This document shows, piece after piece, positions 3,585-55,808 of a stretch of DNA of 64,000 bases (position 1 is its first letter; every line of letters starts with the position of its first letter). The stretch is from assembly GCA_949710005.1 (NCBI GenBank), contig OX453279.1:23053009-23117008 (forward strand). The letters run 5' to 3'. The DNA is from Ricordea florida (taxonomy: Eukaryota > Cnidaria > Anthozoa > Corallimorpharia > Ricordeidae). The notes beneath the pieces are model-generated. The model ran no database searches, was not told where the DNA came from, and was given only the letters and a program-made list of their open reading frames with translations. A program made the position numbers and the translations under genes.

Positions 3585-6500
3585 ATGGCTTTGAGTAAGA
3601 AGAACGTTGCAGTGGTGATGTTTGTCGGTTTTGTTAACTACCTGGAGTGGGCTATTGTCATGACTTCGATCTACCCTTACATAGAGTCGGTAAGTGATAT
3701 CACCTCATGTATAAACTGTTAAATCTCCGCTTGTATGAGCTTGACTGCATCCGTGCTTTTTGCATACCCGCTCTTGTCACCTATAGTCATAGTATGCGGA
3801 CAATTAAACTCACTAGAGAAGTAGTCGAGCGTTAGTCTTCTTGGGTATTCTTTTAAAATAAGCTGTCGCAATTTAGTATTTTGAAAACCGTTACATTCTG
3901 TCACGCAATCAACTCACCAAAGTTTCCAAAGGGCTGAAGGTCTATATTGCATGTCAAAGAAAAGTTATTTAAACGAACTCCTGTTTACATTTGATAGCTG
4001 GTTCGAACGTTACGCCTTAAGTGGCTTTTTTGTGGTGATACGATCTTGATGAGAAGCCGGCCCCAAAAACGCCATAACTGCAGGCACAAGTAGCTCAAGC
4101 TCATGAACAGTATGTGGGAAAGTTTATTGGCAATTTTTTAGGGACGGACCATTAGAAAAGTGATGGGGGGGTGGGTGGGGAATTTTCAGCTTGCACGAAT
4201 TTTTTTTTTCGCTCACTGCTTTTGCAAGATTTTTTTTTTTCAGGTGAACCTCTCTGCACGAATTTTTTTTACTACGTGTGAAAAAGTCACAATTGGACCT
4301 TCCTTCTGCATGAATTTTTTTTTTTACCTTCTTTTTTGCATGAATTTTTTTTTTGGCATTTTGCCTTGCATGAATTTTTTTTTGTTTTTTTCCCCAACCC
4401 CCCTCCCCCCATCACTTTTCTAATGGTCCGTCCCTTAGTCAAAATGAAAATGCAACAAAATTCGAAGCTGAAATTACACCACGACTTTCCTGTGTCCGTT
4501 CTTTGGGGCATACGAAAGGGAAAAGAGAGTAGGAGTTGGGCGAGGGTGAGTGCATGCATTCCTTTATGTCCTCGCTCTGGAAATTAATTCTGAAAACGTA
4601 TCCCGTTTGTTTAATCTCCTAATTGTTTCATTCCATCTACATAATCATTTGCTCTAACATCCGCGCGGAGGATCTAAGGCAAAACGACGGACTGCTCGCT
4701 TTCTCACAAGACTTGTTTTCTTAGGGACCGTTCATTCTTTTACGTGGGAGGGGGGAGGGCTGGTGGGATTGGGAGGAAGCATGGGAAGAAAACTGCTTTT
4801 GAGGGGGGGGCATCTCCAAAAAATTAGGGAAAAGGGGAATCACGTGAAACATTTAGCAACACTTTTATGTCATAATGTTTTAATCCGATTAGTGCTCTCT
4901 TATAAACAGCTCTCTGTGGTATTAGAAATTGAGGTGGACATCCGAAAAAATTACCGCTTCAAGGGGGGTCATGCAATTTTTTAACGGTGCTTTCCGAATC
5001 ACGCCAATCCCCCCCTCCCACCCCTCCTTCGTAAAAAATAAACGGTCACTTATATATCCTAATACGTCTTCGCTCCCACAGCTCAGCCTGAGTGAATCTT
5101 CGGCTACAGTTTCCCTGTCATTGGCTCAAAGTTTATTTCCCTTGGGACAAGGCATCTCCCAGCCAATAGCCAGCTTTGTTGTAAAGAAACTCTGTGAGAT
5201 TAAGATCGTCATTGTCGCATCTCTTGTCATTGCTATTTGCGGAAACGTCACATACATGACAGCAAGTAAAGCGAATTCTGTTGCTCTGATTATTTTGGGA
5301 AGAGCTTTGGCCGGGCTTGGTGCAGGTAATTAAGATATAAATATTTTTTATTAAAATTTGAAAATGAAAATAAATTAGGAAAAGTGGTCATAATCTTTGT
5401 ATGGAGTATTACCCGGCGGAAACCACTCGATTAGTATCACGAATCCTGCAATCTGATTGGCTGAAGTACCCCTTACTTATAATGTGATTAGATATCTATA
5501 GCAGCGAGTATCGAAAACGCCAGTGGTTGCATCACAGCAATTAACTTTATGAGATAAAATGATTATTTAACGATTATTAAGTGATTATCGGTGAATATTC
5601 ACTGAAAATCATTGAGCCTGAAGCGAATAAATGTTTTAGTATAAATACACAGGTGATTATTTTAAAAAAAAGAAAAGAAAAAGTATTGTACAACGCGAAA
5701 AAAAAAATTATTTCATCAAAAGCGCGCGTCACAATTGAAAAACGACTGGCAGCCATTTTGCTCGTCGAGGTGATTACCGGTTGATAATCCGAGATAGCGA
5801 ACCAATCAGAGCGCGCGATTTCGTATAATCACCTGAGTATTTATAGTAAATGTTGATATAAATAAACGGTATCGTGCAAGTTGGATAAGCGTTCGTAACG
5901 ATATTGCACGTAACCCAAAATAAAGCTATTTTGTTGTTGTTGTTGTTGTCACTGGCTCTTGTTGCCATCTTTGTTTTTCCTTATTTGTCTAATTTCTTTC
6001 ATACTGTTGATGAAATGATAAGTCATAAGTGAACACAGGAGCCTATGACCATGGGCTCCTGGTGAACATCAATAGTAACAGTAGATTCTACTACCTCTAC
6101 AAACACGAAAAGATTAAAAAGAATTTCAATTTATGGAAACCTCCGTTTTGCCTATGCGAACGTTAAAGTCGACATAGTTGAGCTGGCTGAAGAGGTGAAA
6201 TGACACACTCCAACAGTTTTTGTTTACCACCTCGACATTTCATAAGAACGTCTCGAAAAAAAATTTCAGTGAAAACTCGTTTTCGTATATAATAGTCGCT
6301 CAACAAATCCAAAGATCTTGATTACTACTCATCATTCTTTTAGGGAGTGGTGGAGTCGCTTATGGATTCATTGGCGCGAACACCAGTCGCGAAAACCGCG
6401 CGAAATTGATGTCCTACTACAGAGTCATCTGTATGTTAGGAGTCATGTCCTCGACCATTGGTAAGACTGTGGCACTTTTTTGAACTCATAATTTTATATA

Positions 6501-9500: not shown

Positions 9501-10557
9501 TTCTGACCTATTCTATGGCTGGTGTGGTATTACCTACATTAACAACCAAATATCTGGCTAAGTCGATGATGGTACGTAAAATTTGTGTTTTTTTATTTTC
9601 AATTTTATGTTGCTAATATTTGCTTTGTTGTATTTGTCTTATTGTAACTAAGAAACTGGGATGATTCTACTTTGTCTCTCCCTAATCCAAAAAAGAACTA
9701 CAATACAAAAGAACAAGAGTTAAAATCTTACTGTATTCCAGCAGTGCTGGTCTCCTGATTCCGGCAAGTTTTTTTTTCTCACGTAGCTTTGTGTATGTTG
9801 GGTTGGGGAATTCTGACTTTTCAAGTTACATTCATTGTTTCAAACCAGCAGAGCATCAAACTATGTCTGGTTGTCTACCTGTTTGCAATGTGCACTTTTC
9901 CTTTAGTTCTTTTGTGTTATTTCTTGTTTGTTATTCTCCAGCTCAGAAAATATTTCTAAAGCCACTATTCAACGAGATTGACGATATACCAATGACGCAG
10001 TCTCAGTGTCATCTCTCGGAAACAGCTGTAAAGCGAGAATTAACGCCTGCATTTTTTTTTTCTTTGACCAAACCTCACTTGCACAAGGATTTCCCAAAAG
10101 CCTTGGCATTATTCAACTCGTAGGAAGTGACCAGTGTTGTATATCTTGAGATAGTGAACCAGTCAGATTGCTCAAAATACCGACTTTACTGAGTTAGTAC
10201 ATTTGTTTCGCTGTCTCTCTCCAGCCCGTTATTATGCCTTACTGCATCGCTGCAATGTCAGCTGGCAAGGTGATTGCTCCTCTATTAAGCAAACTGGAAA
10301 TCGTCATTCAAGGCTGGGACCTGCTATTCATGGGCGCACTTGGCCTGACACTATTAGGCCTTCTCGTGTTTATCTGTTTGTACCGAGCACCCGAGCCCGA
10401 GGAAACGCCGCTCCTGCCCGACCGGAAACAACTGAGTTCCGACCGACGACAATCGGCTGATTCCGTAGACGACAACTTAGCCTGCAGAAGCGTCGTCTAT
10501 ACAGTCGAGGAAGGATTAGTTCACCAGCCAGGAAGAAGACAACAAGACATGTATTGA
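3585..10557 (+). CDS. MFSD8/CLN7-like major facilitator transporter 1
   Basis: A multi-pass membrane carrier of the major facilitator superfamily, closest by eye to MFSD8/CLN7-type endolysosomal proteins; its substrate cannot be read from sequence. Seven exons: 3585-3689, 5082-5325, 6344-6460, 6955-7113, 7920-8254, 9437-9571, 10225-10557. All introns are GT-AG and the phases 0,1,1,1,0,0 keep one frame, giving 475 aa. Helix 1 ends in IVMTSIYPYIE (MFSD8 has a very similar string). Exon 2 ends with LGRALAGLGAG, the family's helix-4 region. Exon 5 opens the second half with LKSRGVLLGLMLFLLNGF. The hydrophilic C-terminal tail holds EETPLL, which fits an acidic dileucine endolysosomal sorting signal. 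Start chosen because it places helix 1 immediately after a short basic leader, as in the paralogue at 41385-55808. MITEs and SINEs sit in the introns. It lies about 4.6 kb upstream of the CDPS array on the same strand. Confidence 0.88.
4138..4437. mobile_element. MITE with 30-bp TIRs and TTA target duplication
   Basis: Perfect 30-bp terminal inverted repeats at 4141-4170 and 4405-4434 begin GGGACGGACCATTAG. TTA flanks both ends (4138-4140, 4435-4437), which suits PIF/Harbinger-type insertion. The interior holds about five copies of a GCACGAA or GCATGAA motif followed by a T-run. It lies in intron 1 of transporter 1. A one-ended relative lies at 13862-14000. Confidence 0.75.
4721..5052. mobile_element. 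Second MITE with TTA target duplication
   Basis: The ends GGGACCGTTCATT (from 4724) and its imperfect reverse complement (to 5049) are flanked by TTA on both sides. The interior is G-rich near the left end and C-rich near the right. Its right end is only 30 bp from exon 2 of transporter 1, so it contributes to the DNA around that acceptor. Confidence 0.6.
5560..5850 (-). mobile_element. MITE family A, copy 1
   Basis: Related to 19192-19505 and 58472-58778, in opposite orientation. Shared landmarks are an AGTATAAATAC-type end, the CAGGTGATTAT motif, a GCGCGC-rich stretch beside CCAATCAGAGC, and AAAATGGCTGCCAG. It lies in intron 2 of transporter 1. Confidence 0.65.
7440..7710 (+). repeat. Interspersed SINE-like repeat
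   Basis: Contains GTCCGGAGTTCGAGCCC, which resembles an RNA polymerase III B-box, followed by a conserved-looking body (GATGGACTAGCATCCCATCC). A much-decayed relative is visible at about 33080-33190. It lies in intron 4 of transporter 1. Confidence 0.45.
8286..8498. mobile_element. Foldback element, about 80-bp arms
   Basis: The left arm (from CCATTTTACAGTT at about 8287) and the right arm (ending AACTGTAAAATGG) are imperfect reverse complements. Their inner parts carry AGCCTTTGAATAGAAG and its complement. It lies in intron 5 of transporter 1. Confidence 0.65.
8640..8750 (-). repeat. tRNA-derived SINE
   Basis: The minus strand shows an A-box-like TTAGCGCAGTGGTGAGAGC and a B-box-like GAGTTCAATTCCC at tRNA-like spacing, followed by a non-tRNA body. 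It lies in intron 5 of transporter 1. Confidence 0.6.
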
Positions 10558-12370: not shown

Positions 12371-12380
12371 GCTCTTTCAA

Positions 12381-24003: not shown

Positions 24004-26096
24004 ATGGCTTTAAATCTCGCTTGCAATGAAGAAACTCTTGTCTACAAAACAGGACAACAAGGGATGTCTACCAACGATGGAGTTGTGCTTTTTGGAATAA
24101 GTCCCGGAAATCCGTACTTCAAATCTGCTGTCATCCAGGACTATGTGGCTTACCTGGGACGGGAGAAGAGACGAATAGTGGTGGTTGTACCACAGCAACC
24201 AGCTGAGCACACCTACAGAGCTATGGGAAGCAAAGATCCAGTGAAACGCGCCAAGAGAAACGTTAGCAAACTGAAATCGCACTGCAAGAGAGCCATTGAT
24301 CAGGTAAACAGTATAAAAAGTTGTGTTCCTTTAAATTAAAATCTACTTAACAAGAACTAAATGTTGTTATAATACTTAAATGAACAAAATAAACTCGACG
24401 CTTTCTAGGATTTAAAAGATTTAAGAACGTTTTTGATTTATGAAAGAATGAAAATGATTTACGTTCGTTTGTCTATGCGCAAGCGCTCTTCTCATTTCCG
24501 TCACGTAATGTACCGCGCACGCATTCCTAACTGAGTCATTGTTCTTAAAACCCCACCCCAAAGCTTAGAACACTGCCATAAAATGGTGCCAGTATTTTCC
24601 CACAAGTTCTCTCCATATCATGCAAGAACTTTGCGACTTTGCGTCGTGCCTTCCGTTGTACATTTGTGCCCTCGTTGAAATGCAAACACAATTCCAGTTG
24701 AGGCTTCGTATAACTATTTTATTTCATTTTCCTATTTATTCTTTTGTTTTTATTTGCTCAATGACCTCGAATTCCGATTTCTTAATTTTCCAGGTCAACC
24801 AGAACAAAAAAATGGCTGGTGATTTCCACATGTTAGACTGGACTCGCGAAGTGGACACACACGAGGCTTACCTAGAGGCAATGAAATTCATTCTTAACCT
24901 TTACGAAGACAACTCAAAATTCCGCTCGGATGTAGCAGGAACAACCGCTAAAGTCCTGGGAAAAGGCTCCAACTCTTCTGATGAAAGCGGTTCAGGTTAG
25001 AAAGTGCTTTTTATGTATAAAGGTATCTGTTTTGTGTATATATATTACCATACTCTTTTTTATATTTCTTTTTTATCTATATTTATTCTGCAAAATGCCT
25101 TCTTAAGCCATTCTTGCTTGCCTTACACGAAGTTTACAACCACATTGTGGCACGATCGGATTTATTTATTTATTTGTTCACGAGAGTCAAACGCATGTCG
25201 CGTGATCTAGTAAGTCACTCATGTACGCATTGCAGACCTATTTTAAGTTATCTGATATGAGTTATTAGACAGCAGGAAATATTTCCCCCGAACTTTCAAT
25301 GTCTCGTGTGTCACTCACCTCAAGTGATCTCTGTGTTTTGGAATAGGCAATTGCTAAAATGTTTTACAACAAACCCTCTTCTTTTTTGTTGTGAGACGGG
25401 ACCTACGGTTTATCGTCTCTATCCGAGATGACTAGAGAGTCTAACCATTTTAAAGAAGTCATTACAAAGGCAGAACTTTCGCCTCAGTTGTTTAAAGATC
25501 CTAAGTACTAGTCCAGCCAGGGTTTCAACCCGCGACCTCCCGCACGGTAGTCCAGTGGTCTAAATGAACTGAGCTAACCGGTTGGCTGTTAGCACTCCAT
25601 GATTAAGTAGCGTCAGGTCCCCATAGAAGTTCTATGCTCTCACCTTGCACAGCATTACTTCTCTCGGCTTCTCACTAAACACAGAACAAAAGAAATAGCC
25701 TAGAAGAGAACGATGCACACAAAATGTGTGGGTAGAACTGTAGTCCAACCTTAAAAGGTTTATACTTGCATCACGTTTGCTGCAAAATCTTCTGTCTCCA
25801 AGCTTGAAGACTGTCATTTGATTAAATAAATGATAATATCTCTGTTTGCAGAATCCTCTGAGTTTGAAGATGACGAAAATGTTCAAGAAGGTGTCTACTA
25901 TTTGTTAAAAGAACTCGCCTTCCTCATCGCCAGCAAACAGATCTTCGCCACAGATCACGTCACTGTCATCTACTACCGGAGTTTTCTTGTGTACGAGAAT
26001 TTTGTCAATGGAGACTATGACGGGGAACCAAAGAAAGGACTGGGACTATCGATCATCAAGTACAACCACGAGCGACTGCGCAGATCATTTGAATAA
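24004..26096 (+). CDS. Cyclodipeptide synthase, copy 2
   Basis: Intact paralogue of copy 1 and probably the cleanest gene of the array. Exons 24004-24303, 24794-24995 and 25852-26096 have the same sizes (300, 202, 245) and phases as copy 1, giving 248 aa. The active-site string is FGISPGNPYF (Ser33, Asn36), and the basic helix, YLLKE pair and Tyr208 are present. I count about 20 substitutions against copy 1, clustered in the C-terminal ten residues and exon 2. The last residues are ERLRRSFE, more basic than in copy 1. AATAAA at 26218-26223, 122 bases after the stop, is a plausible polyadenylation signal. A tRNA-derived SINE lies in intron 2. Upstream DNA is shared in part with copy 1 and in part with copy 3, so this copy sits between the other two in the duplication history. 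Confidence 0.92.
25395..25590 (-). repeat. tRNA-derived SINE in CDPS copy 2 intron 2
   Basis: The minus strand carries a tRNA-like head: GGTTAGCTCAGTT (A-box) and GGGTTGAAACCCTGG (B-box). The body continues to about 25395. It is not a functional tRNA, because an extra stretch separates the A-box from the anticodon region. Confidence 0.6.
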
Positions 26097-26223: not shown

Positions 26224-26239
26224 CTTTTAGCCTCCACCG

Positions 26240-27470: not shown

Positions 27471-27475
27471 TACGA

Positions 27476-27649
27476 GTGATAACACTGAGATCGGACGACC
27501 CCTCCATGGCGCGAAAAAGGACCACCCTGGGAATGAGATTGCGGATTACCCGGACTCATTCCAAAAAGCACAACTCCGTTTTCCGTAGACATCACTTCAT
27601 GCTCTGTTTGGTTGAATGTGGTTTCTTCATCGCAACAGAAATTTAATAC
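27476..27649 (-). pseudogene. Antisense relic of CDPS exon 1 (relic 2)
   Basis: On the minus strand, 27649-27543 keeps the exon-1 reading frame from about residue 3 through the active site (VVLFGMSPGNP), with the Ser and Asn positions retained. It then runs straight into non-CDPS DNA that is also joined to relic 1. The start codon, the basic helix and exons 2 and 3 are absent. The frame stays open to 27347, but this looks like chance. Confidence 0.8.
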
Positions 27650-28204
27650 CAGCTTTTAATTATTTATATTTCGGTGCTCTTGGATTCTATCTGAGAGTAT
27701 CGCTCTGTAGAAACTATTGTAAGGACTGACTGCCTTATATGTCCTTACATTTATCGTAAGCTGGAAAGGAGTGGCTAGAACGAACTGAATCGGTAATGCG
27801 GTTAGAAATAAACATAAAATCCCTTGCATGCGCGTGACAACTGAATCATCATTTATAGTTGCGGAAGTAATTCAAGTTGATATTCATTAGCTGTTTTAAT
27901 ACTAGGGGACGCATTATCCGTCTGGACGAAGTTGGGCAAACATTCGTAGTTCGTTTGGCTATGCTTAGACCGAGAACAATAAACTTCCACGCGTAACTTA
28001 AATGACAAAAATATGATGATTAAAATTATGAGCACGGTTATCACTGAATTGTACTACACGAAGTCCAATTACCAATTATTGTGTCAATAACAAAATGCTA
28101 GAAACTCAGGAAGTAGTAAGGCTGTCAAAATCTAAAGAAAACATATCTGAATAAAAGTCATTGGACCAGCTAATTTCGTCCATTTTTGTTTTTAATCAAG
28201 ACTT

Positions 28205-28467: not shown

Positions 28468-29473
28468 ATGGCTTTAAATCTCGCTTGCAATGAAGAAACT
28501 CTTTTCTTCCCCAAACCGGACAACAAGTCATGTCTACCAACGATGGAGTTGTGCTTTTTGGAATAAGTCCCGGAAATCCGTACTTCAAATCTGCTGTCAT
28601 CCAGGACTATGTGGCTTACCTGGGACGGGAGAAGAGACGAATAGTGGTGGTTGTACCACAGCAACCAGCTGAGCACACCTACAGAGCTATGGGAAGCAAA
28701 GATCCAGTGAAACGCGCCAAGAGAAACGTTAGCAAACTGAAATCGCACTGCAAAAGAGCCATTGATCAGGTAAACAGTAAAAAAAAAGCTGTGTTGCTGG
28801 AAATTAAAATCGACTTAACAAGAGGTAAATGTTGTTATAATACTAAAGTGAACATAAATAACCAAAATAAATTCGACGCTTTCAAGAATTTAGAAGATTT
28901 AAGAATGTTTTCGAACTATGAAAGAGTGAAAATGATTTACATTCGTTTGCCTATGCACAAGCGCTCTTCTCATTTCCGTCACGTAATGTACCGCGCACGC
29001 ATTCCTAACTGAGTCACTGTTCTGAAAACCCCACCCCAAGGCTTAAAACACTGCCATAAAATGGTGCCAGTATTTTCCCACAAGTTCTCTCCATATCATG
29101 CAAGAACTTTGCCAGTTTGCGTCGTGCCTTCCGTTGTACATTTGTGCCCTCGTTGAAATGCAAACAAAATTCCAGTTGAGGCTTTGTAGAACTATTTTAT
29201 TTCATTTCCTTATTTATTCCTTTGTTTTTATTTGCTCAATAACTTCGAATTCCGATTTCTTAATTTTCCAGGTCAACCAGAACAAAAAAATGGCTGGTGA
29301 TTTTCACATGTTAGACTGGACTCGCGAAGTGGACACACACGAGGCTTACCCAGCAGCAATGAAAGGCATTCTTAACTTTTACGAAGACAACTCAAAATTT
29401 CGCTCGGATGTAGCAGGAACAACCGCTAAAGTCCTGGGAAAAGGCTCCAACTCTTCTGATGAAAGCGGTTCAG
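28468..29473 (+). pseudogene. Cyclodipeptide synthase, copy 3 (broken)
   Basis: Third tandem CDPS copy. Exon 1 lies at 28468-28769 and exon 2 at 29272-29473, with the same splice sites as the other copies. Relative to copies 1 and 2, exon 1 has a net +2-base change around 28500-28528, so translation from the usual ATG soon shifts frame. An in-frame ATG at 28530, equal to Met21 of copy 1, would restart just before the active site FGISPGNPYF. Exon 2 has AYPAAMKG where the others have AYL and no Pro or Gly. Exon 3, which carries the Tyr/Glu pair and Tyr208, is not found between 29474 and the P450 start, although intron-like DNA homologous to copy 2 continues to about 29870. The donor at 29474 is phase 1 and no downstream P450 acceptor is phase 1, so an in-frame fusion is not available. 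Confidence 0.85.
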
Positions 29474-34935: not shown

Positions 34936-34966
<31 letters not shown>

Positions 34967-41384: not shown

Positions 41385-44300
41385 TTAACACGAAAGGCTT
41401 GAAACGCGCGCAGCAAACGTTTCGCCCGATGAGGAACGAACAAGAGGATTATCTTGGGTTGGGACTCTCAGTGAATTGCACGGCGCCTTGTCCTCTTGTT
41501 CGGTTCGGGTGACCGACGAAGAATTACTAAAGATCGTCGGTTCGTCGGGTTCCAATTTTCGGTATAAGAAAGGAAAAAGAAAGAGAACTAGCACAACAAA
41601 CGTTGCCGTGGTAATGTACACAATGACCCAGCCGTGAATGGCAAGTTGTGCTCTTGTTAATAAAGGAGCCATGACTTTACCAGCTGACATGGAGGCCACA
41701 CAATAAGGCATCAAAGCCGGCTACAAAACAAAACACACAAATCATTAATTTCAAAAGCTGGAAAGTCAAAGAACATCAAGAAACAATAGTGGATAGGAAC
41801 AAAATCACGATCGACCTCCGTCTCTTCAACATTGGTGATCACTGGCACGACACCGCCCGAGACCGCGAGGCATGGAGGTGTGTCCTAAGGACTGGTAATC
41901 AGCTCTGTGAGGACCACCTCCAAGCACGAGCCGCGGAAGGAAGGAGGAAAAGGGCATCCAAGGGTCCCTCATCATCGGCCCGACGGGAACCATAAGAAGA
42001 AGAAGAAGAAGAATTTAAAGTAAGCCAAAATCATCTCCAGAAATCTTGGACACGCGAGCGATTGCGTAATCAAATTTCGTGTTTGGGACTGGATCATGTT
42101 CGCAAAATTCTATAGGGATTTGTATGGAAATCGTAAATAAACAGCAAATATTTTCCAAAGGAGTAAAGATAGCAAAAATGTGCAAGTGTGGCCTAATAGG
42201 CTGATATATAATGAGACATTTTTGAGAAAATCATGGCAAAGTAAACGAAATTAATGTGTATTTGCGAAATTTTTCTTTCCGAGTTGGAGTGCATTAAATT
42301 TAACAGGATCTGTATGACATTTTCAACGAAATCGGGAAGAAGCATAGTTTTTAAAATGCGATTTTCGATAAAGTAAGCATGATGGGAGAAATGTGCAACC
42401 AGACGTAATAAAAACATGCTTTAACCTAGCTGACAAAGCCGTTTATAAGCCGTGTAGTTTACCTTTCATGTGTATTTGCTCTGATTGAAAACCATCCACA
42501 AATGCCGTCGAGCAGAATCCATTGAATTCCCACGGTAAAATCCGCAAAATATGCCGAGTTCAAGAAGCGATATCTCGGCCACAATTGCCTCAAATTTCGC
42601 TCAAAAGGCATCATTTGAAAGGTTTTTTCTTCCATTTGTAAAATATCTATCGATCACGTTGGCCAGCAGTCTTTATAGGGGCATGCTTTCTGTTTTTCTC
42701 AACTGGTTTTGAGCATCGGCGTGCCCTAAAACATGAGCCCACACCCAAGCCTTGCGGTCAGTGGAAATTACCATTTTGGTAATGGTTCTTTGTTTTCTTC
42801 GAAAACGATATAAAACGAAAACAACCGATATGATTTCCCGTAATTATATTAGAACTACAGCACCAGATACTGCACAAAATTCATGATTACAGTACGTGCG
42901 AAGTATTTTTTTAAGCAAAGCCGCGCACCGGTACGCGGGCTCAAATGTCCAAGATTTCTGGAGATGGCTGTTCAGAACTTTCCTCCTCCAAACGAAAAAC
43001 CAAAAACAGGAGGAATGACACAGTTCAAGTTATGCAATACAGTACTGTTTCAAACGTGACAAGACCAGCGTACATCACGGCCTTTACAGCTTTAAACACA
43101 TGAACGCACTGCGTACCTATTTTAAAGTCCCGATACACGAACAGGGTATAACGTAAATGGAATATTCCAGGCATTTATCTCAAAGAAAGAATTGTAACTC
43201 ACCATGGCGGACTTGCGTGTTGTCTTGCTGGCCAACATAGGCAGGATAAGTCCGCACACAGAATAAGCAAAAAACACAAGAACTGCTCCCGTTATGAATA
43301 TCACCTCATTACTGAACCGTGGTGGGTGAAAAGTGTTCTACAACGAATAAAAAGATCAAATTTAGTCGTAAAACTATTCAAATCTTTGACATGTCATTTG
43401 TAAACAGCGACGTACGGCACAAGATTTGACATAAACAACTCGTGAAGACAATCCAATACGTTGCACTTTCTATGACATAAACTATAACTGCACAAAGAAT
43501 GTATGATACAGAGAATGTACATCTCGTTCTTTAAGCGTGAAATCAAAGGCTTCGTCTTTGACTGTTAGAATGGAGAGTGTAAATATTAAATAAAGGATAG
43601 TAGGCGTGCCTTCATTGGTCAACAGTACTGTTTATATTAGATTGTAAAAGATATTAGGCGTGTTTTCATTGGTCAACAGTACTGTTTATATTAGATTGTA
43701 AAAGATATTAGGCGTGTTTTCATTGGTCAACAGTACTGTTTATATTAGATTGTAAAAGATATTAGGCGTGTTTTCATTGGTCAACAGTACTGTTTATATT
43801 AGATTGTAAAAGATATTAGGCGTGTTTTCATTGGTCAACAGTACTGTTTATATTAGATTGTAAAAGATATTAGGCGTGTTTTCATTGGTCAACAGTACTG
43901 TTTATATTAGATTGTAAAAGATATTAGGCGTGTTTTCATTGGTCAACAGCACTGTTTATATTAGATTGTAAAAGATATTAGGCGTGTTTTCATTGGTCAA
44001 CAGTACTGTTTATATTAGATTGTAAAAGATATTAGGCGTGTTTTCATTGGTCAACAGTACTGTTTATATTAGATTGTAAAAGATATTAGGCGTGTTTTCA
44101 TTGGTCAACAGTACTGTTTATATTAGCCTATAAAGGATAGTAGGGGTGCTTTCATTGGTCAACAGTACTGTTTAGATTAGCTTGTAAAAGATATTAGGCG
44201 TGTTTTCATTGGTCAACAGTACTGTTTATATTAGCCTGTAAAGGATAGTAGGGGTGCTTTCATTGGTCAACAGTACTGTTTAGATTAGCTTGTAAAAGAT

Positions 44301-47300
44301 AGTAGGCGTGTTTTCATTGGTCAACAGTACTGTTTATATTAGCCTATAAAGGATAGTAGGGGTGCTTTCATTGGTCAACAGTACTGTTTAGATTAGCTTG
44401 TAAAAGATAGTAGGCGTGTTTTCATTGGTCAACAGTACTGTTTATATTAGCTTGTAAAAGATATTAGGCGTGTTTTCATTGGTCAACAGTACTGTTTATA
44501 TTAGCCTATAAAGGATAGTAGGGGTGCTTTCATTGGTCAACAGTACTGTTTAGATTAGATTGTAAAAGATATTAGGCGTGTTTTCATTGGTCAACAGTAC
44601 TGTTTATATTAGCCTGTAAAAGATATTAGGCGTGTTTTCATTGGTCAACAGTACTGTTTATATTAGCCTGTAAAAGATAGTAGGCGTGCTTCCATTGGTC
44701 GACAGTACTGTTTATATTAGCCTGTAAAGGATAGTAGGCGTGCTTTCATTGGTCGACAGTACTGTTTATATTAGCCTGTAAAGGATAGTAGGCGTGCTTT
44801 CATTGGTCGACAGTACTGTTTATATTAGCCTGTAAAGGATAGTAGGCGTGCTTTCATTGGTCGACAGTACTGTTTATATTAGCCTGTAAAGGATAGTAGG
44901 CGTGTTTTCATTGGTCAACAGTACTGTTTATATTAGCCTGTAAAAGATATTAGGCGTGTTTTCATTGGTCAACAGTACTGTTTATATTAGCCTGTAAAAG
45001 ATATTAGGCGTGCTTTCATTGGTCGACAGTACTGTTTATATTAGCCTGTAAAAGATAGTAGGCGTGTTTTCATTGGTCAACAGTACTGTTTATATTAGCC
45101 TGTAAAAGATATTAGGCGTGTTTTCATTGGTCAACAGTACTGTTTATATTAGCCTGTAAAAGATATTAGGCGTGTTTTCATTGGTCAACAGTACTGTTTA
45201 TATTAGCCTGTAAAAGATATTAGGCGTGTTTTCATTGGTCAACAGTACTGTTTATATTAGCCTGTAAAGGATAGTAGGCGTGCTTTCATTCGTCGACAGT
45301 ACTGTTTATATTAGCCTGTAAAAGATAGTAGGCGTGTTTTCATTGGTCAACAGTACTGTTTATATTAGCCTGTAAAGGATAGTAGGCGTGCTTTCATTGG
45401 TCGACAGTACTGTTTATATTAGCTTGTAAAGAAATGGTTTTGACGTTAATATCAAAGCGAGTAGCTAAACAATTTGTTTTTTTTTATCTATAAAAGAAAT
45501 CTTATTAACTGTGTTTATTTACACCAAAATGCGTTTGAGAGAAACAGGTATAAACAATCCACTTCGTTGTCGCGTTTGTACTATTGCCTCTTGAATTCTC
45601 CCCCGCGCACGTCGGTTTGTCTAAGCTTGTACAAACACGATAGAGGAGCTTTTGCGGGTGAATGTAAGTATCTGGGCAATTGTAACTTTTTAACTTATTA
45701 TAACTTGTTGGGTAGGGGAGAGGTAGGTGCACAATTGCACAGATACTTACATTGATCCGTTCTTTCTTAGTTAAGAAGTGTACCTGAGAACCGAAGTAGC
45801 ACAAGACAACACCAAGCAGCAGCAAACAACAGCTAAAAACAGTCCCTTTCCATTCGCCATCATTTGTAAACAGCGACGTACGGCACAAGTAAGCTACACC
45901 AAACGAGCCAATCACCGCGGTGCATGACACTCCAAGAAGAAGCCAACCAAACTTAGCTGAGGACCAATCAAATTTGTCGAACACGACTAATGGCATGACA
46001 TAAGCAATCCACGTGGTCATGTATCCAGTGAGAAAAAACAACAGAAATACAAGATAGACCGTTTTAGTTCGTAAAAGTTCCTTTATATTTGAGCCGCCTG
46101 GTTCGTTGTAGTCTAAAAAAGAAATCAATGTATCAGATCCGGTGGTTCGGTACCGTTGTGGAGTTAGTGAGAATTGAGAGGGACATTCGGGGGATCCAAG
46201 CACTGCAATACCGCACATAGAAAAGCAAGAACACCGCTATGCCGCATCGAGATTTACCAAAATCGCGAAGCCGCTTTGTCTTGTAATACCGTACTTTCAG
46301 ACGTAGATGTTTATGAAACTCGACAAGTTTCTTTGTTTCATGTTTTTGTCCGTTTTTTTGGCCTTGACCCTGCACAAAAACACACTTTTTTCGGTAGGAT
46401 AACCAATCAAAACTTTCGACTAATATATTCGCAAGTAACATGCGAAACAAAAACAAAAGACCGTGCAGGGTCACGGTCGATTCAACATATAATTGCGACT
46501 GCGCTGTTCTTGCTTTTGAAATTTCCAGGGTTTCATCACCAGTCCCTCGATTAGTCCCTCGTTTCAGATAAAAACTATTGCAATATCGTACCTAAAATAA
46601 CGAAATACCGTATTACCGCAAACTCTTACATCCTCCTCTGTTGGTGGTAATGGTTGCTTTAAATGTCAGGTCGGATCGGTAGTGGATCGGTAGTGGATCG
46701 GTAGCGGAGCGTTAGTGGATCGGTAGTGGATCGGAAAGGAGTAACTGGTGGTAGCGATGGTGGTAGTTAAGGCGGAAGCAGTAGCGGTGATGGCATTGGT
46801 TAAGGAGGTAGTCGTGCTTTTAGAAGTTGCAGTGGTAATATTAGTAATAGTGACTGTCGCAACGATATCGATAGTTAAGTGATAGAGATGGTAACATAGT
46901 ATGAGTGATGAGCTGGATAGGTAATGGCAGATGCGTTGCAATTGCTAACGTCAGTAGAAATCTTATTGTTTTGTGGTGTTGATAACGGGGGTGAAAGTGA
47001 AAGTGATAATAACAGGTGTTTTAATAGAGGCAGTACTGGTGGTAGTGGAAGTGCTGGTGGTTGTGGAAGTGTTATTAAGAGTGGTTGCTTTGCTAGTGAT
47101 AATGGAAGTGGCAGTGATAAAGGCAGTGGCAGTGGTGATGCTTTGGTAGTGATCGTGGTAGTAAAAGCGGTAGTCGTTGGTGCAGTCATGGTGGTAGTGT
47201 CAAGTAGTTGTAATTTAGTGGTGGTGCGGTTGGTCGTAGTTGTTTCAGAAGTATTAATGAAATGACTTACATACATAGTCTGCCCAGAGTACTCTAGCTG

Positions 47301-50300
47301 TACTGCATTACCTGTTGTTAGGGAATATCCGTCATTGAACACAAAAACCACCAACAATAAAGCCAGAGTTAAAAGAACAAAGGAGCAGGCTGGAGGAGTT
47401 GTGTAATCAGACAGAGACAAAGTTCCTATATTGATTTTACCGATCCTAGGGAAGATTGAAGCTGAAGCTAAAAAAAAATCACAAAATAAAAAAAAACACA
47501 GCGATAAGTAAATTAAATCATATCAAGATCAAAGTGCTTAAATTTGAGTGGTTCGGGACTGAAACAAATAAGACTTATGGGTTCCTGGGATCAATGTAAG
47601 TATCTGTGCAACTGTGCACCTACCCCTCCCCTAACCCAACATGAACCCTAACTTTTTAACTTATTATAACTTGTTGGGTTAGGGGAGGGGTAGGTGCTCA
47701 ATTGCCCAGATACTTCCATCGATTCGGTTCCTGTTGGTGAATAACCTGAATAAAGACCCAAACTGAACAATTTAGCCTGAATGATTCAGGTCTTTTAAAC
47801 CAAGAAATTTGAGCAGGATATTAGCCAATGGAACGTAACTGTCTAATTCTGCTAGCCAATGAAAATCACGATCAACACGTAAAGACTATGGGCTAGCGTT
47901 CCAAACATTAGCTCCCCTCTTATGTTACCATGGTAAAATCAGAAACCCATAAGACTTGAAACGTGGAACTCACGTGGAACCCACGTTCACAGCTTGTTCA
48001 GATTCAATATTACCCAAAGTACCATATTTGGAAACTGCATGCCCCAGTCTTTGAGTTCGTTGGCACTGATTGATTCATTTGGCTTCTTTTGCTTTCTTAA
48101 TATGGTACTGGGTAGATTGAAAGTGGACAAGCTGTGGTTGAAGACGTTCAAAGGCAGATACACGTTTCAAGTCTTATGGGTTTTTGGTAAAACTTATCAT
48201 TTCGTTTTCTAGACCCATTTTATGTGTTCGAAGCCGTGGTAACATAGCCTGATACTAACTATATAGTGAGCCAATTGGAGCGCGTGTTATCGATGTGGGA
48301 GAGCGCATCCTAAACGTTTCTTTCCGAGCAAAACCGCCATCTTGAACTAGTTTCGACACCGATTTTGAAGCCGCGAGTGTACTACATGTAACTCAAATTG
48401 CGTACTCTGACAACAAAAGCGCTCGAGAAAGAAAAACGGCAACAAAATGAAACAAGAAAGTTGGCAACAGTAGAATAGGAAAATAAATTCAATTGTTATA
48501 AAGCTGGCGTTTTTCCCGCTACAGGTCGTCCATTCATTGGCTACTTCGTGGTCACATTACATCTAACAATGAAACTGTTTACCGCCCAATGCCATAAGCG
48601 GGCAACACTGCGAAAACTATGACGTCAAACGGAAAACAGTTCACCATTACCCACGAAATGTTGACCGCTGTTGCACGTAGACGCGTGATTGTCAATAATT
48701 ATTTGTTCTCCACCGGTTTGACCCATTTGTTTTGCTATATAACAACTAGTCCCTTGGAAAACAGTTAATTTTGTTTCCCTGGAATCCCAATGTTTCCCTC
48801 GCCGAACATTGAGATTCGAAGGAAAAAAAATTCACTGTTTCCCTCAGCTTCCGTCGTGCTAGCTTCCTTCCTTCCGCAGACGCGTGCGTTTTCTCGGCTT
48901 TGTAACGCGTTCGTTCGTCAGAAAGGAGGAACGGGTAAGGAACGCGTGACGAAGCTCAGAAAACGTTTGCGTAGTAGGCTACAGTGGTGCCGCCCTTGGC
49001 GTTGTCGTCGGGTATACTTCAGGTTCCTAAATTAATTAGCACCTTAAAGCTCGTTATAGTAAAGCAAAATAAGAAATAAAACTTACCAAGAGTTGCAAGT
49101 ATAATACCAGCCATACACACCACTCTGTAGCCCATGATCAGTTTGAAACGATTGTCTCGCCAAGAATTAGCAGCAATAAATCCATAGGCAATACCACCGC
49201 TGCCTATGTATAAAGGGAATTTACACTGATTACAGTGGCTGGCAGCAATACGGGAGGGCTGACATTTTTTTAGTATGGCCTATCTACGAGCAGTGGTATT
49301 TCATATTGCACTTCGGAATTTATTACTGAAGGAATTACCCTGTTTTAAATAAAATTATCCTCCTCTGCAATTATATTTTGATTAAAATCAAAAAAATATG
49401 TGATAACTTTTAAGAGTTATCACATTTTAAGAATCACGTGCTTTAAGAATTTATGACTTTATAGATGTTGGTTTGATGTTGTTGATTTTGTAGTGATTCA
49501 GTGAATTATTTGTACTTTTACTTTTCAATCCATTCTTTGAAATATGACATAATCTAACCATTGGATTATAGGGTTACGTGAAATAAAATATTTCTCCGAT
49601 AAAATACCCATCATTCTTATGTTAACCCTTTAAGCCCCAAAAGTGTCTTTATAGATTTTACTCTGGCTAACGCCAGACGATTTTACTCGTCACAGGGAGA
49701 CTCCTCGGGGCTTAAAGGGTTAAACGAAACCATAACATCATTTAGCGCCAAACAATACGTACAATCAAGGGAGCACATGGGATGGAGAGGGACCCTGTCC
49801 AGCCCTTGGAATATAAAAACTTGAGAAAAGTTATTTTTGGACACCAAAGCCTGTTTTCTGAGAGGTCCGCATGCCTCACTGTGATGCTCATTGCGAACCG
49901 AGTAGAACTCTCGTTTGTAAATTCCGCCTGAATAATCCATAATTAGAGATACTCATACATATTCAGTAGCCGCTAGCGGTCGTTAACGAGGGTCTGAATG
50001 GGGTTTAATGTTTGGTGTTATTGTCGCATAATTTTTAGTGTTAAATTGGCCAATTTTTTAATGTTTACTGTTTCCGAAGTGTTTGGACGATTCTTCGGAC
50101 ATCTTCGGCAATGGTCGGAACGCTTCGTTAATCTTCGAAAATGTTTGACAGTCTTCGGAAATGTACGGCAGCCTTCGGAAATCTTCTGGAATAATCCGAA
50201 ATCATCGTAAAGTGGTCGAAAAACCCCTTGATAATATTGAAAACTAATATTGGCCTTTTCGGAGCCGTTTTGGCTTCTTTCTAGAAAAAAAATTGCTGTT

Positions 50301-53300
50301 TTATAAAATTTTTTAATGTTATTGTTAAAATGGCTAAAATTTAACTGTTTCATGTTACAAAGCCAAAAAATAAAGTGTTTAGTGTTATCGAGGTACCCCC
50401 TTTCAGACCCTCATTAACTACAGATGAGAACATCTCGGAAGCGTACTTCCGATTCTGTAAATAAATTTACTGAGGTTTTCACTGATCCCTGTCGACGCCC
50501 TGATTGTCCCTCTCTGTCCCTTATGTTCTCTGACTGGGAGTGTCCCTCTTTGTCCCTTATGTTCTCTTGCTACAATAAGAACCTTACCTGCTCCAATGCC
50601 AGCTGCAGCCCTGCCAAGAATGATTAAAAACAGCATGTTTTTTTCATCCGCCAGAATGTAACAGACATTTCCCGTCATGGACAGCAGTATCATCAACAAC
50701 AGAGCACCTTTCACGTGTGACAGTTTCTTAACCAGGATCGAGACTAGAGGCAAGGACAGACCTTGGCCGAGTGGAAAGGTGCACTGGGCAAGAGCGAGGT
50801 ACAACCCGCCTTCGTCTTTTTCAATCTGCAGTTAATTGAAGAAACGGTAAACGTGTAGTCTCCTCCGCAGCCGTTATCAGGATCGTCACGCAAGCGTTGC
50901 GTGACGATCCTGATAACGGCTGCGGAGGAGACTAGTAAACGTGCAGCGTCCAACCATCGAGTTATGGACGCACGCGGAAGGCTGCTAAGCTCGAAAGAAG
51001 CGTAAGAGTTGCTGGAGGCGCAGCCGAGAGCATCTCTAGCTTCTTGAGTGCTTAACAAACCTCTCTAGTGCGTCCATAACTCGATGGTTGCACAACTGCT
51101 GTGTTTACCATTTCTTTTATAACATAAGACTTCACTACTTTTATACTGGTCAACAACCTGACGTCATCATGCAACTCTTGAGCAAATGGATCGCGCATAT
51201 TAGCCAATCATAGCGCGCGCTTTCCCAAAGCTATGTTATAAATAACGTCTCGTTGTTTGAACACTAATGAAACACCAGATGAGCTTTCGCCCGAAGACAT
51301 GTAATATCTTCACAGGTGAAAATATCACAGGTGAAAATATCACCGTTATTATGGTTACATAATGAAATGGTGAAGAAATGGTTTAGTACTTCATTGGAGT
51401 TGATACAATAAATAGAATATTACATAGCCGCATAAGGAGACCATTTTTTTTTTTCAAGTTTTGAAAAATATTTCATTGAGTTGAGAAATGGCCCGTACAA
51501 AGGTAACACGTGTAAATGAAATATGGAGGAAAGTTCTTTTTTGCGCACAGCTTACTAGGCAGATAAATTGCTTTTTGCAAACATGTACCAACCTCTGCGA
51601 AAGCACGATCATTTCGTACGAAAGGTGTTTATAATTAGGACTGTCAAAACGCCCGATCAAGAATATAAGGGAGAGGAACGCTCTTTGTGACGGGCTCCTG
51701 TTCCAGCTGACTATTTCACCCACAGAAAACGAGGACGAGTTGTCTAATTGTCTCAGTAGAAACCACATACTTACATACAACCGTTCAATTCTATACCAAT
51801 ATTTATTGATTTATTTATTTATTAATTGATTTTCAAACCTTTCGATTGAAGTGGTTTACTTTGTCCTAGGCGCGGGTTTTCTCGATGTATTCTGGGACTA
51901 TTTTTGAAGGCGAAAGTGCTTGTTTTCTATCGTATCCGACATTTCTTATCAATTCAATCGCTAAAAATGGCGAAAATCAAACAATCGAATGATGCAATGC
52001 AATTCGACTAAGTCAGGAACAGTTTTTCGGGTCGGTACATTTCGCTGACCCCCAGTCCATGGACTACCACGATGGACTACCCAAATGGACTACCCAAATT
52101 CATTGTTCTTGTTTAATTATTCAAAATGGCGGCTAAAGGCCAGGTTGCAACGACGCACGCCATTTTGAATAATTAAACAAGAACAATGAATTTGGGTAGT
52201 CCATTTGGGTAGTCCATCGTGGTAGTCCATGGATTGGGGGTCAGCGAAATGTACCGACCCCAGTTTTTCGCGGAAGCCAGTCCCGATTCTTAATCTTATT
52301 GTATTTCATTTGAATCCGTTTCGGTTTCATTGATTTGCTCAGCCTTACCAGCGTTACTGCTGCCGAGGGTAAACAAAACGATACAAGGTTGAAAATTATT
52401 CAAATTCTGCTCTAGACTAACTAGGAACTTGCCAGGATATTGAAACCGGCATTGAAACCGCGTCGAACCTAAATATTCTCACACACGATTTACTTGTAAA
52501 CACCACTTCTAGACACAAAAACGTTTTGTAAGGATCTTCTCAATGAAGTTCGGTTTCTAGAAGAAGAAGGTTCAAAAGTTACCAAAACTCACAGACGTTA
52601 CTGAAAGGAATGCATTACCCCGTGATTTGGAAACACGGAACAGACATTTAATTTTAAGTTTTCCGTTTTAATGTCGGGAGAGGGGAATAACGTTAATTTT
52701 CTTTTGGAATAATGCAGGGGCGGATCCAGAGTAGTTCAAGTGATTTCCAGAAATCACTCAAATGTTTCCAAATCTGGGTTTGTTATTTCTCAGCTTGTTT
52801 CTTGAAGCTCAAGAAATCAATTATCCTTCTTGTTGCAGTGTTTATCATGAAATAAAACAGAAAAAAATCGTCGAATCTCGTTTTACCGTCGATTACACAG
52901 CAAACCCAGCCCATTCCGAACGAATTTGACGAATCTCCGTTCGCGCGCTTTCGTCCTTTGTCGAGACTTCGGAGAACAACACGAAAAAATTCGTAGGCAC
53001 GACCGGACAAAATTTGTACGCAGTGGGTGGGAGTGGTTAGTTTATCGATCTTTCCACAAATCACTCAAAACCCTCCTCTATTGGCCAGAATCACTCGCAT
53101 TGTCTTGCGAACTACTCAAACTCGGTTGTGATTGGCTATCCAGGACGCAAACTACCGTGCAAACTACTGACAATCGTATATAAAGGGAAGCCTCTCCCCG
53201 AAAGTCCCTCGTTTGTTCTTGCTCCGATCAGAGTTAATTGTTAAAGTAACTTGCTACGGAAGGAAGACAAGGGAAATTTTAATTATAAATGATGGTTCGA

Positions 53301-55808
53301 GGCGATCCAGTTTGTCGGAAGGAGGACTGTTCACAGTATGATGTTGGTTTGGTTTTCAAGGAAATCAACTCATATTCGGACCAGGACAAGTTCATAGAGA
53401 ATGTGTGGAAACCAGGTGAGCTATTTGATTTCCCAGCGTCAGTGGAATGTTCGAACTGTAGCCGTCATTTTGTGCGGAGCTGGCTGAAAAGATTTCCCTC
53501 GCTAGCATACTCTAAATATGTCGATGGTGCATTTTGTTTACCGTGTGTTTGTTTTGGAGTCCAGTGTGGGCGAAATACGAATAAACTAGACAAATTGTTC
53601 AAGTCTCCACTCACACTTTGGACGTCCGCCGCTTCACGTTTTACCAAACACGCCAGCGGGAAATGTGAGATGCATAATTTTGCAGTGATCGCAGTGGAGA
53701 CTTTTCTGAGAAACATGAGAAGAGAAGCGGTTCCAATTGATCAGCAGATCAACAATTTACTTCAACAGCAAATCAATAGAAATCGCGAAATTCTGAATCC
53801 CTTTTTAAAACAATAATTTTCTGCGGAAAAAACAACATAGCCCTCAGAGGTACACGAGATTATGATCGAGGAAATGGGAGTCTTTCCGGTTAGAAGCGGC
53901 GACCAAACACTAAAACATCACCTGGAAACCGCTCCCAGAAATGTGACTTATATTTCTAAAACCATTCAAAATGAGATGATTACAACTGTGGGTGCTATCA
54001 TAGTGAATAATTTGTCACAGGAAATCAGGGACAGCAAATATTTTTCTATTATGTCTGACGAAGCAGCTGACATATCAAATAAACAAAACCTTTCAGTGGT
54101 GATCAGATTTCTCGACTCGACCAAAACAGTCAGAGAAGAGTTTGTAGGATTCTACCTTTGTGAGGATATACTATACTTCAAATCCTGATCACTATTCCCA
54201 TTTCATCGGCATCTTGCGAAAGGTGCATTTCAACCCACCGAAATCTGAAGACGTATTTGAGGAGTACAATGGTCCAGGATAGACTGAATGGATTAGCACT
54301 GATGCATGCCCATAGGGAAATGGAATTAGATCTTGAACAAATTATAAATTTATTTGCTAATTTACATCCCAGAAGAATGAAAATGGAAAATATTTTAAAT
54401 GAATAATTTTGTATCAGGGAGTCACTAGTGTTTCTAGAGTACTTGTGAGTTATGTTCCATCTGGATGTAATCCTTAATTAAACTGATGGAGAACAGTACA
54501 GATACATAACTGGTGTCTGTGGTACAATTGTATTAATACTTATATCTGGACAAAAAAGTCATTCTTCATTAGTTTTTAGAGTTATTTTTCCACTGACACT
54601 GGGTATTTGATAAGCTTAAATGGTTTTCACATATTCTCTCAGTCTGAGCTCATTGGACCACATCAATTTATACACTGATCTAAAAGGCTGAAAAATGCAA
54701 GTATGATTCCAACTTTTCAGTTTTGCTGATACATTTCCACAACAATGTTTCTTAATATTCACTAATAAATCCTTATTTTTTATCTTCCATTCCCACTTTG
54801 AACTAACTGACCTGATTCCCATTGGAAAGTTATTTGCACCCCCACAAGCATCCAAGACAGCAATCCAGGCAGCAGATCTACTACATTTTCAACAGTAGCC
54901 CTCAATCTTAATTCACATGCTAGACTCCTTAGACAAAAAAAATTTAATGTTATTCTGGTTTGTCTGTGTAAATACACAGAATTGATTTTTTTGTACAGAA
55001 TTATGCCTTTCTGAGGAGGTACTATTAATGTGTCTGAATGGCTTAAAGTGCTACACAACCGAATTGCATTCTGGGAGCATTAAATTTCAAATTTTCTTGG
55101 GGGGGGGGGGGGAGCATGCCCCCAAACCCCCAAACCCCCAAACCCCGCTAGTTAAGGTGCTGCAAATCACTCATGTAAAATCCTGGATCCGCCCCTGATA
55201 ATGTGATTTTGTTGGACGGAATAACGACTTTCTCTGGAATAATCGATTTGTCAATTTTGAAATAATGAATGACAGTTGCACTATCTTCAATCTTAATATT
55301 GTGGAATACCGAAGAATTTCCGAGCAGGAATAATGAAATAATGAACACCAGATCATTCCTCTTCACCGCCTGATTAATGGTATGAAAACACGGGAAAGGA
55401 GGCGAACATTGACTAATTTTCCGTTCAACTTATAAATTAGTCATTTAAGGTATTGCATGCGAAACGAGATTACGAACCAACACGGGTGCCGACTCGAATC
55501 AAATTTTTAAAAAATCCTTTCGTTTTCTCGCTGCGGGAAGGAAGTGAATTGTTTAGAGGTCGAGCAAGAAATTCTCTTAATTCCAATATTTGGTCTCCTG
55601 TTGCATGGAAAAAGTTAATATTTTACCGATGTTTGAAACCTTCGGTTTTTGCTTGTGCAGTGTATTTCATTTCCGAAGCACAGAAATATGTACCCACCTT
55701 TTGAATGTAGGGATAAATTGACGCCATGATGACTGCCCATTCCCAGTAACTGACAAACCCGGTGACAAGCAACGCTACCAGATTACTCTTTTTGAAAGCG
55801 GAAGGCAT
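41385..55808 (-). CDS. MFSD8/CLN7-like major facilitator transporter 2
   Basis: Paralogue of the transporter at 3585-10557, on the opposite strand, 473 aa. Exons in gene order: 55808-55698, 50825-50588, 49203-49087, 47467-47312, 46112-45784, 43337-43203, 41720-41385. The phases 0,1,1,1,0,0 are identical to transporter 1 and exons 3 and 6 have identical lengths, so the two arose by duplication. Marks: AVIMASIYPYIQK at the end of helix 1, ILGRAAAGIGAG at the end of exon 2, GYMTTWIAYVMPLVVFD in exon 5 and a hydrophilic Ser-rich tail. The acidic dileucine seen in transporter 1 is not evident. The start is the ATG at 55808; there is no ATG upstream in frame nearby. Introns total about 13 kb and hold a hAT element, foldback elements and a 54-bp minisatellite. 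Substrate unknown; its place across the P450 from the CDPS array makes a cyclodipeptide-type cargo a reasonable hypothesis. Confidence 0.87.
41780..41998 (+). mobile_element. Possible LINE C-terminal remnant
   Basis: The frame contains WHDTARDREAWRCVLRTG, which resembles the DR-x-x-WR tail found at the end of many non-LTR retrotransposon proteins, followed by a (GAA)n tail. It lies in transporter 2 intron 6, antisense to the gene. Confidence 0.4.
43394..43550. repeat. Exon-5 fragment plus inverted duplication
   Basis: 43394-43423 is a 30-base exact copy of part of transporter 2 exon 5 (45860-45889). It is followed at once by about 125 bases that are the reverse complement of 40860-40985. The 54-bp minisatellite starts about 40 bases further on. 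Confidence 0.85.
43590..45432. repeat. 54-bp minisatellite, about 34 units
   Basis: Tandem units of 54 bp (GGTC at 43617 and 43671 gives the period). Each contains TTCATTGGTCAACAGTACTG. Within it AACAGTACTGTT is a perfect 12-base palindrome and ATTGG an inverted CCAAT box. Variants (AGATTGTAAAAG or AGCCTGTAAAGG, GGTCAACA or GGTCGACA) occur in blocks. It lies wholly in transporter 2 intron 5. Confidence 0.95.
45662..45756. mobile_element. Small TIR element, copy 1
   Basis: Ends AATGTAAGTATCTGGGCAAT and the near-complement of it, with a core TTTAACTTATTATAACTTG. A second copy lies at 47594-47722. It sits 28 bases from the donor of transporter 2 exon 5. Confidence 0.65.
46670..47265. repeat. 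Low-complexity GGTAGTGG-type region
   Basis: Tandem GGATCGGTAGT units (46676-46736) merge into a long region of GTGGTAGT-like trinucleotide repeats. Long open frames on both strands are by-products of this. It lies in transporter 2 intron 4. Confidence 0.7.
47594..47722. mobile_element. Small TIR element, copy 2
   Basis: Same ends as 45662-45756 (AATGTAAGTATCTGTGCAA), with an extra GGGGAGGGGTAGGTGC pair. It lies in transporter 2 intron 3. Confidence 0.6.
49988..50412. mobile_element. GGTCTGAATGG-ended element with TTCGG repeats
   Basis: Ends GAGGGTCTGAATGGGG and the near-complement CCCCCTTTCAGACCCTC. The interior carries TTAATGTTT/GGTGTTA motifs near the ends and about nine CTTCGGA-like repeats at 50075-50210. 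It lies in transporter 2 intron 2. Confidence 0.6.
50847..50943. mobile_element. Palindromic element with 9-bp target duplication
   Basis: Perfect 38-bp arms at 50856-50893 and 50897-50934 flank a 3-base loop. GTAAACGTG flanks the element directly on both sides (50847-50855, 50935-50943). A 9-bp duplication fits Mutator-like (MULE) insertion. It lies 22 bases upstream of the exon 2 acceptor of transporter 2. Confidence 0.85.
50951..51090. mobile_element. 140-bp MITE with 22-bp TIRs
   Basis: CAACCATCGAGTTATGGACG begins the left arm (50951-50972) and its exact complement ends the right arm (51069-51090). It is adjacent to the palindrome at 50856-50934. Confidence 0.75.
52020..52270. mobile_element. 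Long foldback element with 9-10-bp target duplication
   Basis: Arms of about 100 bases (GGTCGGTACATTTCGCTGAC at the left, complement at the right) enclose a short centre. CAGTTTTTCG occurs at 52020-52029 and 52261-52270. It lies in transporter 2 intron 1. Confidence 0.85.
52715..55197 (+). mobile_element. hAT-type DNA transposon, defective
   Basis: 15-bp terminal inverted repeats CAGGGGCGGATCCAG (52715-52729, complement at 55183-55197) are each flanked by ATAATG. It encodes a transposase relic on the + strand, opposite to the host gene. The whole 2.5-kb element lies in transporter 2 intron 1, and internal G/C runs and stop codons show it is no longer autonomous. Confidence 0.85.
53289..54188 (+). 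pseudogene. hAT transposase remnant, TTF-finger/DUF4371 type
   Basis: The first frame (53289-53816) has a TTF-type zinc finger: SRHFVRSWLKRFPSLAYSK followed by a CLPC motif. After a stop and shift a second frame (53862-54188) has FSIMSDEAADISNKQNLSV, the DUF4371-like start of the hAT catalytic domain as in ZMYM1-like proteins. The C-terminal dimerisation domain is not found, so the enzyme is broken and truncated. Confidence 0.8.

Follow-up and report, generated by a model that had tools for sequence, protein, structure and literature searches.

Do the cyclodipeptide synthase (CDPS), cytochrome P450 and MFS transporter genes that lie side by side in the genome of the corallimorpharian Ricordea florida form a pathway, or did they come together by chance? 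CDPSs of fungi and animals were described in 2010, along with an annelid CDPS induced in the antibacterial response (excerpts of PMC2922099), and the coral, sea anemone and marine worm enzymes were placed in the NYH subfamily (excerpts of PMC5816076). According to the available part of PMC11610984, the eukaryotic phyla with CDPSs are Ascomycota, Annelida, Ciliophora and Cnidaria. The original prediction for this locus drew on an active CDPS in the sea anemone Nematostella and on bacterial loci where a P450 and an MFS protein accompany a CDPS. Both are in print: Nvec-CDPS2 of Nematostella makes Trp-containing products (PMC4159871; also PMC5816076, both in part), and the yvmC, cypX and yvmA genes represent the bacterial arrangement (PMC11610984, in part). 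Animal CDPSs, including those of corals, are therefore already known, and an animal CDPS accompanied by a P450 and transporters would be new. No such animal cluster was found among the titles and abstract openings listed in the literature searches, which cover few subscription papers. PMC12250223, which reviews the chemical defences of anthozoans, contains no word beginning with "dipeptide".

Gene content of the window

The window, i.e. the whole stretch of DNA analysed, comprises 64,000 nucleotides (assembly GCA_949710005.1, contig OX453279.1, positions 23,053,009 to 23,117,008 of the forward strand) and contains no N. Gene models were drawn up manually on the evidence of reading frames, splice sites and comparison of paralogues (Table 1). 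The gene order is MFS1, CDPS-A, CDPS-B, the broken CDPS-C, P450 and MFS2, all on the plus strand except MFS2, with successive gaps of 4.6, 5.3, 2.4, 0.9 and 1.6 kb. The five intact genes (two CDPS, one P450 and two MFS) lie within 52 kb, of which their coding sequence makes up 11%, and all introns of these five models are GT-AG. The two cluster ends given by the original prediction coincide exactly with the starts of MFS1 and MFS2, and its assignments to the CDPS, P450 and MFS families all score above the Pfam cut-offs.

Table 1. Features of the R. florida locus, in window coordinates
Feature	Position	Strand	Exons	Description	Basis
MFS1	3585..10557	+	3585-3689, 5082-5325, 6344-6460, 6955-7113, 7920-8254, 9437-9571, 10225-10557	intact, 475 aa, 7 exons	spliced model GT-AG, Pfam MFS_1
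CDPS-A	15158..18696	+	15158-15457, 15747-15948, 18452-18696	intact, 248 aa	spliced model, profiles, catalytic residues
Relic E	about 19074..19121	-		CDPS exon-1 relic, inverted, short	local alignment score 53
CDPS-B	24004..26096	+	24004-24303, 24794-24995, 25852-26096	intact, 248 aa	spliced model, Pfam, alignments
Relic D	27542..27652	-		CDPS exon-1 relic, inverted	tblastn E 3.7e-11 with CDPS-A; DNA alignment
CDPS-C	28468..29473	+	28468-28769 (frameshifted), 29272-29473; no exon 3	broken partial copy	tblastn, DNA alignment
P450	30395..39743	+	30395-30469, 32807-32952, 33520-33775, 35745-35989, 36081-36186, 37054-37185, 37498-37653, 39423-39743	intact, 478 aa, 8 exons	spliced model GT-AG, Pfam p450
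MFS2	41385..55808	-	55698-55808, 50588-50825, 49087-49203, 47312-47467, 45784-46112, 43203-43337, 41385-41720	intact paralogue of MFS1, 473 aa, 7 exons	spliced model GT-AG, Pfam MFS_1

After the exclusion of ORFs rich in a single residue and of those overlapping modelled exons on the same strand, 199 ORFs of at least 65 aa were left. The longest 148 of these were scanned against Pfam and gave only RVT_1, DUF4371 and hAT dimerisation domains, in a census that is blind to domain-free genes and to genes with short exons. The prediction that, transposons aside, the locus has no other protein-coding genes fits this result for the ORFs scanned. Neither an Rfam scan at gathering thresholds nor a tRNA scan gave a match in the window. 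Among the transposon remnants, a broken transposase of the hAT type (53289-54403; fragments of DUF4371 and hAT dimerisation domains) lies inside intron 1 of MFS2, and the remains of a reverse transcriptase (61584-62093) lie outside the cluster. Together with the introns, these remnants indicate eukaryotic DNA.

The MFS genes bracket the CDPS and P450 genes and match Pfam MFS_1 (PF07690) with 94.4 bits for MFS1 and 67.7 bits for MFS2 (cut-off 33.4). Their description as two paralogous transporters was correct: both are intact, the proteins are 41% identical and the phases of the six introns, calculated from exon lengths, are the same (0,1,1,1,0,0), as would be expected if the pair arose by an old duplication. 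With a simple cut, ten hydrophobic segments are counted in each protein, fewer than the twelve expected in the MFS family. The tail of MFS1 carries the motif EETPLL, which may be an endolysosomal sorting signal, and no such motif is present in MFS2. Searches with both proteins, which the original prediction calls MFSD8-like, against PDB and NCBIfam gave no match. In an intron of MFS2, a 54-base unit is repeated in tandem about 34 times, with 94% similarity between the copies (43591-45430).

Where three tandem CDPS genes had been proposed, two are intact. CDPS-A and CDPS-B match Pfam CDPS (PF16715) with 79.5 and 77.5 bits, respectively (cut-off 27), and CDPS-A, the copy scanned against NCBIfam, matches TIGR04539 (tRNA-dependent cyclodipeptide synthase) with 99.2 bits (cut-off 45). 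The first exon of CDPS-C has 302 bases, compared to 300 in A and B, and runs into stops in the ATG frame. A tblastn search of the whole window for exon 3, which encodes the residues equivalent to Tyr178, Glu182 and Tyr202 of the CDPS AlbC, found it in A and B only. CDPS-C sits in a 1.88-kb duplicate that is 90.4% identical to 23563-25386, a source stretch that stops short of exon 3 of CDPS-B. Three working CDPS genes are thus ruled out, C being without exon 3. The original prediction did not list the two inverted exon-1 relics, D and E. Relic E has an alignment score of 53 compared to at most 30 in 200 mononucleotide shuffles, and the segment 19005-19100 beside it matches 27469-27579. The relics point to repeated copying and decay of the CDPS gene, and the tally is two candidate working genes and three dead pieces.

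The P450 gene encodes a protein that matches Pfam p450 (PF00067) with 157.4 bits (cut-off 22.8) and has both the ExxR motif (ESAR) and the heme loop FxxGxRxCxG (FGIGPRRCMG). Its N-terminus is hydrophobic, and the protein is probably membrane-anchored. In a gapless alignment with human CYP3A4, the I-helix reads VNVDIT instead of [AG]Gx[DE]T[TS], which could mean altered or lost activity. According to the available part of PMC8110760, I-helix variation is common in cnidarian CYPs, two coral CYPs having AGSDIT. The same source gives 1-3 exons as typical of cnidarian CYP genes, which makes the eight exons of this gene unusual. The heme loop FGIGPRRCMG occurs in no row of the motif tables in that part of the paper, which cover three species, Nematostella not among them. 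The intron that follows exon 3 of the P450 gene contains two tandem arrays with 106-base units (8.6 and 3.5 copies; 33802-35383).

A shared pathway or chance neighbours

We tentatively interpret the locus as a specialised-metabolite gene cluster that was assembled in the animal lineage and encodes a working pathway, an interpretation that has a nearly even chance of being correct. A set of synthase, oxidase and transporter is plausible given the intact genes, the retained active sites and the adjacency of the genes, which are co-located on one contig. The two near-identical CDPSs would convert two aminoacyl-tRNAs to a cyclodipeptide, the neighbouring P450, if anchored in the membrane, would modify its ring or side chain, and the MFS paralogues would carry the product across a membrane, in the case of MFS1 perhaps into an endolysosome-type vesicle. 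The metabolite cluster of the original prediction is supported in part, by its gene content and compactness and by the intact genes, active sites, adjacency and bacterial parallel; on the other side are the dead third CDPS, a P450 that is not of the bacterial type, and the upstream regions.

The upstream regions of the genes share no k-mers of 8-10 bases above control. This result is in line with the main alternative, which is a substantial possibility: the genes are neighbours by chance, the CDPS pair makes unmodified cyclodipeptides as in Nematostella, and the P450 and the transporters serve unrelated functions, e.g. detoxification and lysosomal transport. Nvec-CDPS2 is an active stand-alone enzyme in the available parts of PMC4159871 and PMC5816076. 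Furthermore, the P450 and MFS families are large and broad, so that any synthase with a P450 in its vicinity would give the impression of a cluster. Against chance, three compatible functions are adjacent and only transposon remnants were found between them. The probability that the four nearest genes would by chance include both a P450 and an MFS gene is crudely estimated at 7e-5 to 4e-4, with P450 numbers taken from the available part of PMC8110760, assumed numbers of MFS genes and of genes in the genome, and no correction for the many windows read.

Active site and predicted products of the synthases

CDPS-A and CDPS-B were aligned with the chain of AlbC and 51 rows from prokaryotes. Both window proteins retain Ser37, Asn40, Tyr178, Glu182 and Tyr202 of AlbC (Ser33, Asn36, Tyr184, Glu188 and Tyr208 in their own numbering). 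In contrast, position 203 of AlbC is occupied by Tyr (Tyr209) in both copies, by His in 50 of the 51 prokaryotic rows and by Gln in the remaining one (L048). Hence A and B depart from the NYH signature (Asn40, Tyr202, His203) by Tyr in place of His, a replacement that could alter or abolish CDPS activity. An NYY enzyme might still depend on aminoacyl-tRNA and yet release no free cyclodipeptides, acting e.g. in immunity by draining aminoacyl-tRNA or by making another peptide; the induction of the annelid CDPS in the antibacterial response (excerpts of PMC2922099) agrees with such a role. We consider this changed chemistry improbable, as all five of the other residues listed above are retained and the Pfam and NCBIfam models match nearly the whole CDPS domain.

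The proteins encoded by CDPS-A and CDPS-B are 92% identical. Their coding sequences differ at 35 of 744 positions (4.7%), compared to 34 of 187 aligned positions (18%) in intron 1 (Fisher p 1.3e-8). The codon-level comparison taken alone weakly suggests constraint (dN 0.036, dS 0.096; 12 synonymous and 20 changed codons; Fisher p 0.088). The 123 bases preceding the ATG are 93.5% identical in A and B, and a TATAAATAG box is present in both. Since the flanking sequences on either side (93.5% and 92.6% identical) come close to the exons in similarity, gene conversion between A and B is possible.

The predicted first pocket has a single difference between A and B, Phe or Leu at position 186, so that their products may differ. 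Compared by eye with Table 2 in the available part of PMC5816076, the P1 motif LGVPWFFV of CDPS-A is identical at 6 of 8 positions to LGIPLFFV (Trp), and LGVPWFLV of CDPS-B is identical at 6 of 8 positions to LGLPWFLF (Phe or Ile, flagged as uncertain). As a weak prediction, the first pocket would accept Trp, or else Pro or Phe. The pocket of copy A is nearest to the Trp motif, and the Nematostella enzyme Nvec-CDPS2 has Trp-containing products in the excerpts available.

Origin of the locus and its known counterparts

A scan of prokaryotic genomes, with patterns derived from a five-row alignment that included the two CDPSs of the window, identified 48 CDPS loci at 20-31% identity. Four plasmid records also match CDPS, three of which were retrieved; phage records and viral contigs gave no CDPS match. 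When four solved CDPSs were included in the tree, A and B belonged to a group of 17 rows (support 100/100), apart from AlbC, YvmC, BtCDPS and 2x9q; the same group has support 100/99 without the solved chains, and the program flagged long branches there. No XYP row and no animal sequence besides A and B was in the tree. The other 15 rows of the group comprise one archaeal MAG and 14 sequences from candidate-phylum bacteria, Melainabacteria, proteobacteria and unnamed bacteria, and all 15 carry N-Y-H. YvmC is among the nearest solved structures to the window CDPS.

Two features of the prokaryotic loci were observed along the way. All 13 scanned CDPSs of the loci L006-L018, from candidate-phylum bacteria, Melainabacteria and proteobacterial MAGs, match CDPS followed by a C-terminal SBP_bac_3 (amino-acid-binding) domain. 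These proteins belong to the closest relatives sampled for the window CDPSs, which have no SBP_bac_3. The fusion may be partly known already, as CDPSs fused to ABC-transporter domains are mentioned in the excerpts of PMC5816076. On two Streptomyces plasmids (L001, 5905-8825; L002, 5911-8831), the CDPS gene lies directly upstream of a heavy-metal P-type ATPase gene and is flanked by metal-responsive regulators, which hints at a role of the cyclodipeptide in metal handling.

The P450 scores 26.2 bits against TIGR04538, the model of bacterial CDPS-associated P450s, far below the cut-off of 500, and by this comparison it is not of that type. A relaxed motif scan detected an ORF with a heme loop and ExxR beside the CDPS at none of the 15 nearest prokaryotic loci (L004-L018) and at one of 51 overall (L051), and a stricter P450 motif scan at none of the 51; some of the stretches scanned are shorter than 12 kb, so that some P450s may be missed. 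Any P450 at all was found in three of the 15 genomes with the nearest loci, which may be incomplete, and P450 genes anywhere in the genome were found in 8 of 20 prokaryotic genomes scanned. Transfer of the whole set from bacteria as one operon, with introns gained later, was rejected as very improbable on the P450 family test and the single P450-like ORF among the 51 loci; bacterial loci with the same three functions do exist (PMC11610984, in part) and the CDPS is prokaryote-like, but the P450 gene has seven introns, each MFS gene has six, and few genomes of the nearest relatives have any P450.

The best solved relative of the P450 is human CYP3A4 (90.7 bits), and scores with a haloarchaeal P450 (97 bits, tblastn) and a bacterial NCBIfam model (78.4 bits) are comparable; the proposed animal origin is therefore argued from the introns and the N-terminal anchor, not from sequence kinship. 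A P450 search of viral contigs added nothing. Since the linkage is nearly absent from the prokaryotic relatives sampled, a working cluster would most likely have come together in the animal lineage, built around a synthase that had been acquired. We speculate, with more doubt than confidence, that the animal lineage took up a CDPS from a lineage near candidate-phylum bacteria or archaea, duplicated it repeatedly and recruited intron-rich genes of a different origin for a P450 and a pair of vesicle transporters, independently reinventing the bacterial CDPS-P450-MFS pathway for a modified diketopiperazine that would be kept in vesicles for defence or signalling.

Four known systems resemble the locus in part. 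Like Nvec-CDPS2 and the coral, anemone and worm enzymes, the window CDPSs are stand-alone family members of about 250 aa (published accounts available in part); the enzymes were compared by description, and a eukaryotic, intron-bearing host was assumed as a further likeness. The available parts of these accounts describe no adjoining P450 or transporter, whereas the window has both. The Bacillus pulcherriminic acid locus yvmA-yvmB-yvmC-cypX (PMC11610984, in part) likewise has a CDPS, a P450 and an MFS gene side by side. However, the window P450 is outside the bacterial CDPS-associated family, the window CDPSs group apart from YvmC, and the window genes are split by introns and transposons, with two MFS genes bracketing the set. 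In the yeast PUL1-PUL4 cluster, a eukaryotic example from the same source, a regulator and a transporter accompany an oxidising enzyme and the enzyme that forms the cyclodipeptide. That source distinguishes PUL1 from YvmC, whereas the window has a true CDPS, and no regulator was found in it. Finally, clusters made by animals from animal genes are described in the excerpts of PMC12833800 (sponge alkaloids, the oro bundle) and PMC12685057 (octocoral terpenes). As in the window, spaced intron-bearing animal genes place oxidative enzymes near a core enzyme. The core enzymes differ, and for those clusters enzymes have been tested or the linkage is conserved, whereas the window holds a candidate cluster seen on one contig.

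The locus offers one type of synthase, one oxidase and two carriers as candidates to be tested jointly for the physiological product of animal CDPSs. If the cluster is confirmed, tRNA-dependent diketopiperazines would join the chemistry encoded by animals, and the same pathway logic would have arisen twice, from different P450 stock.
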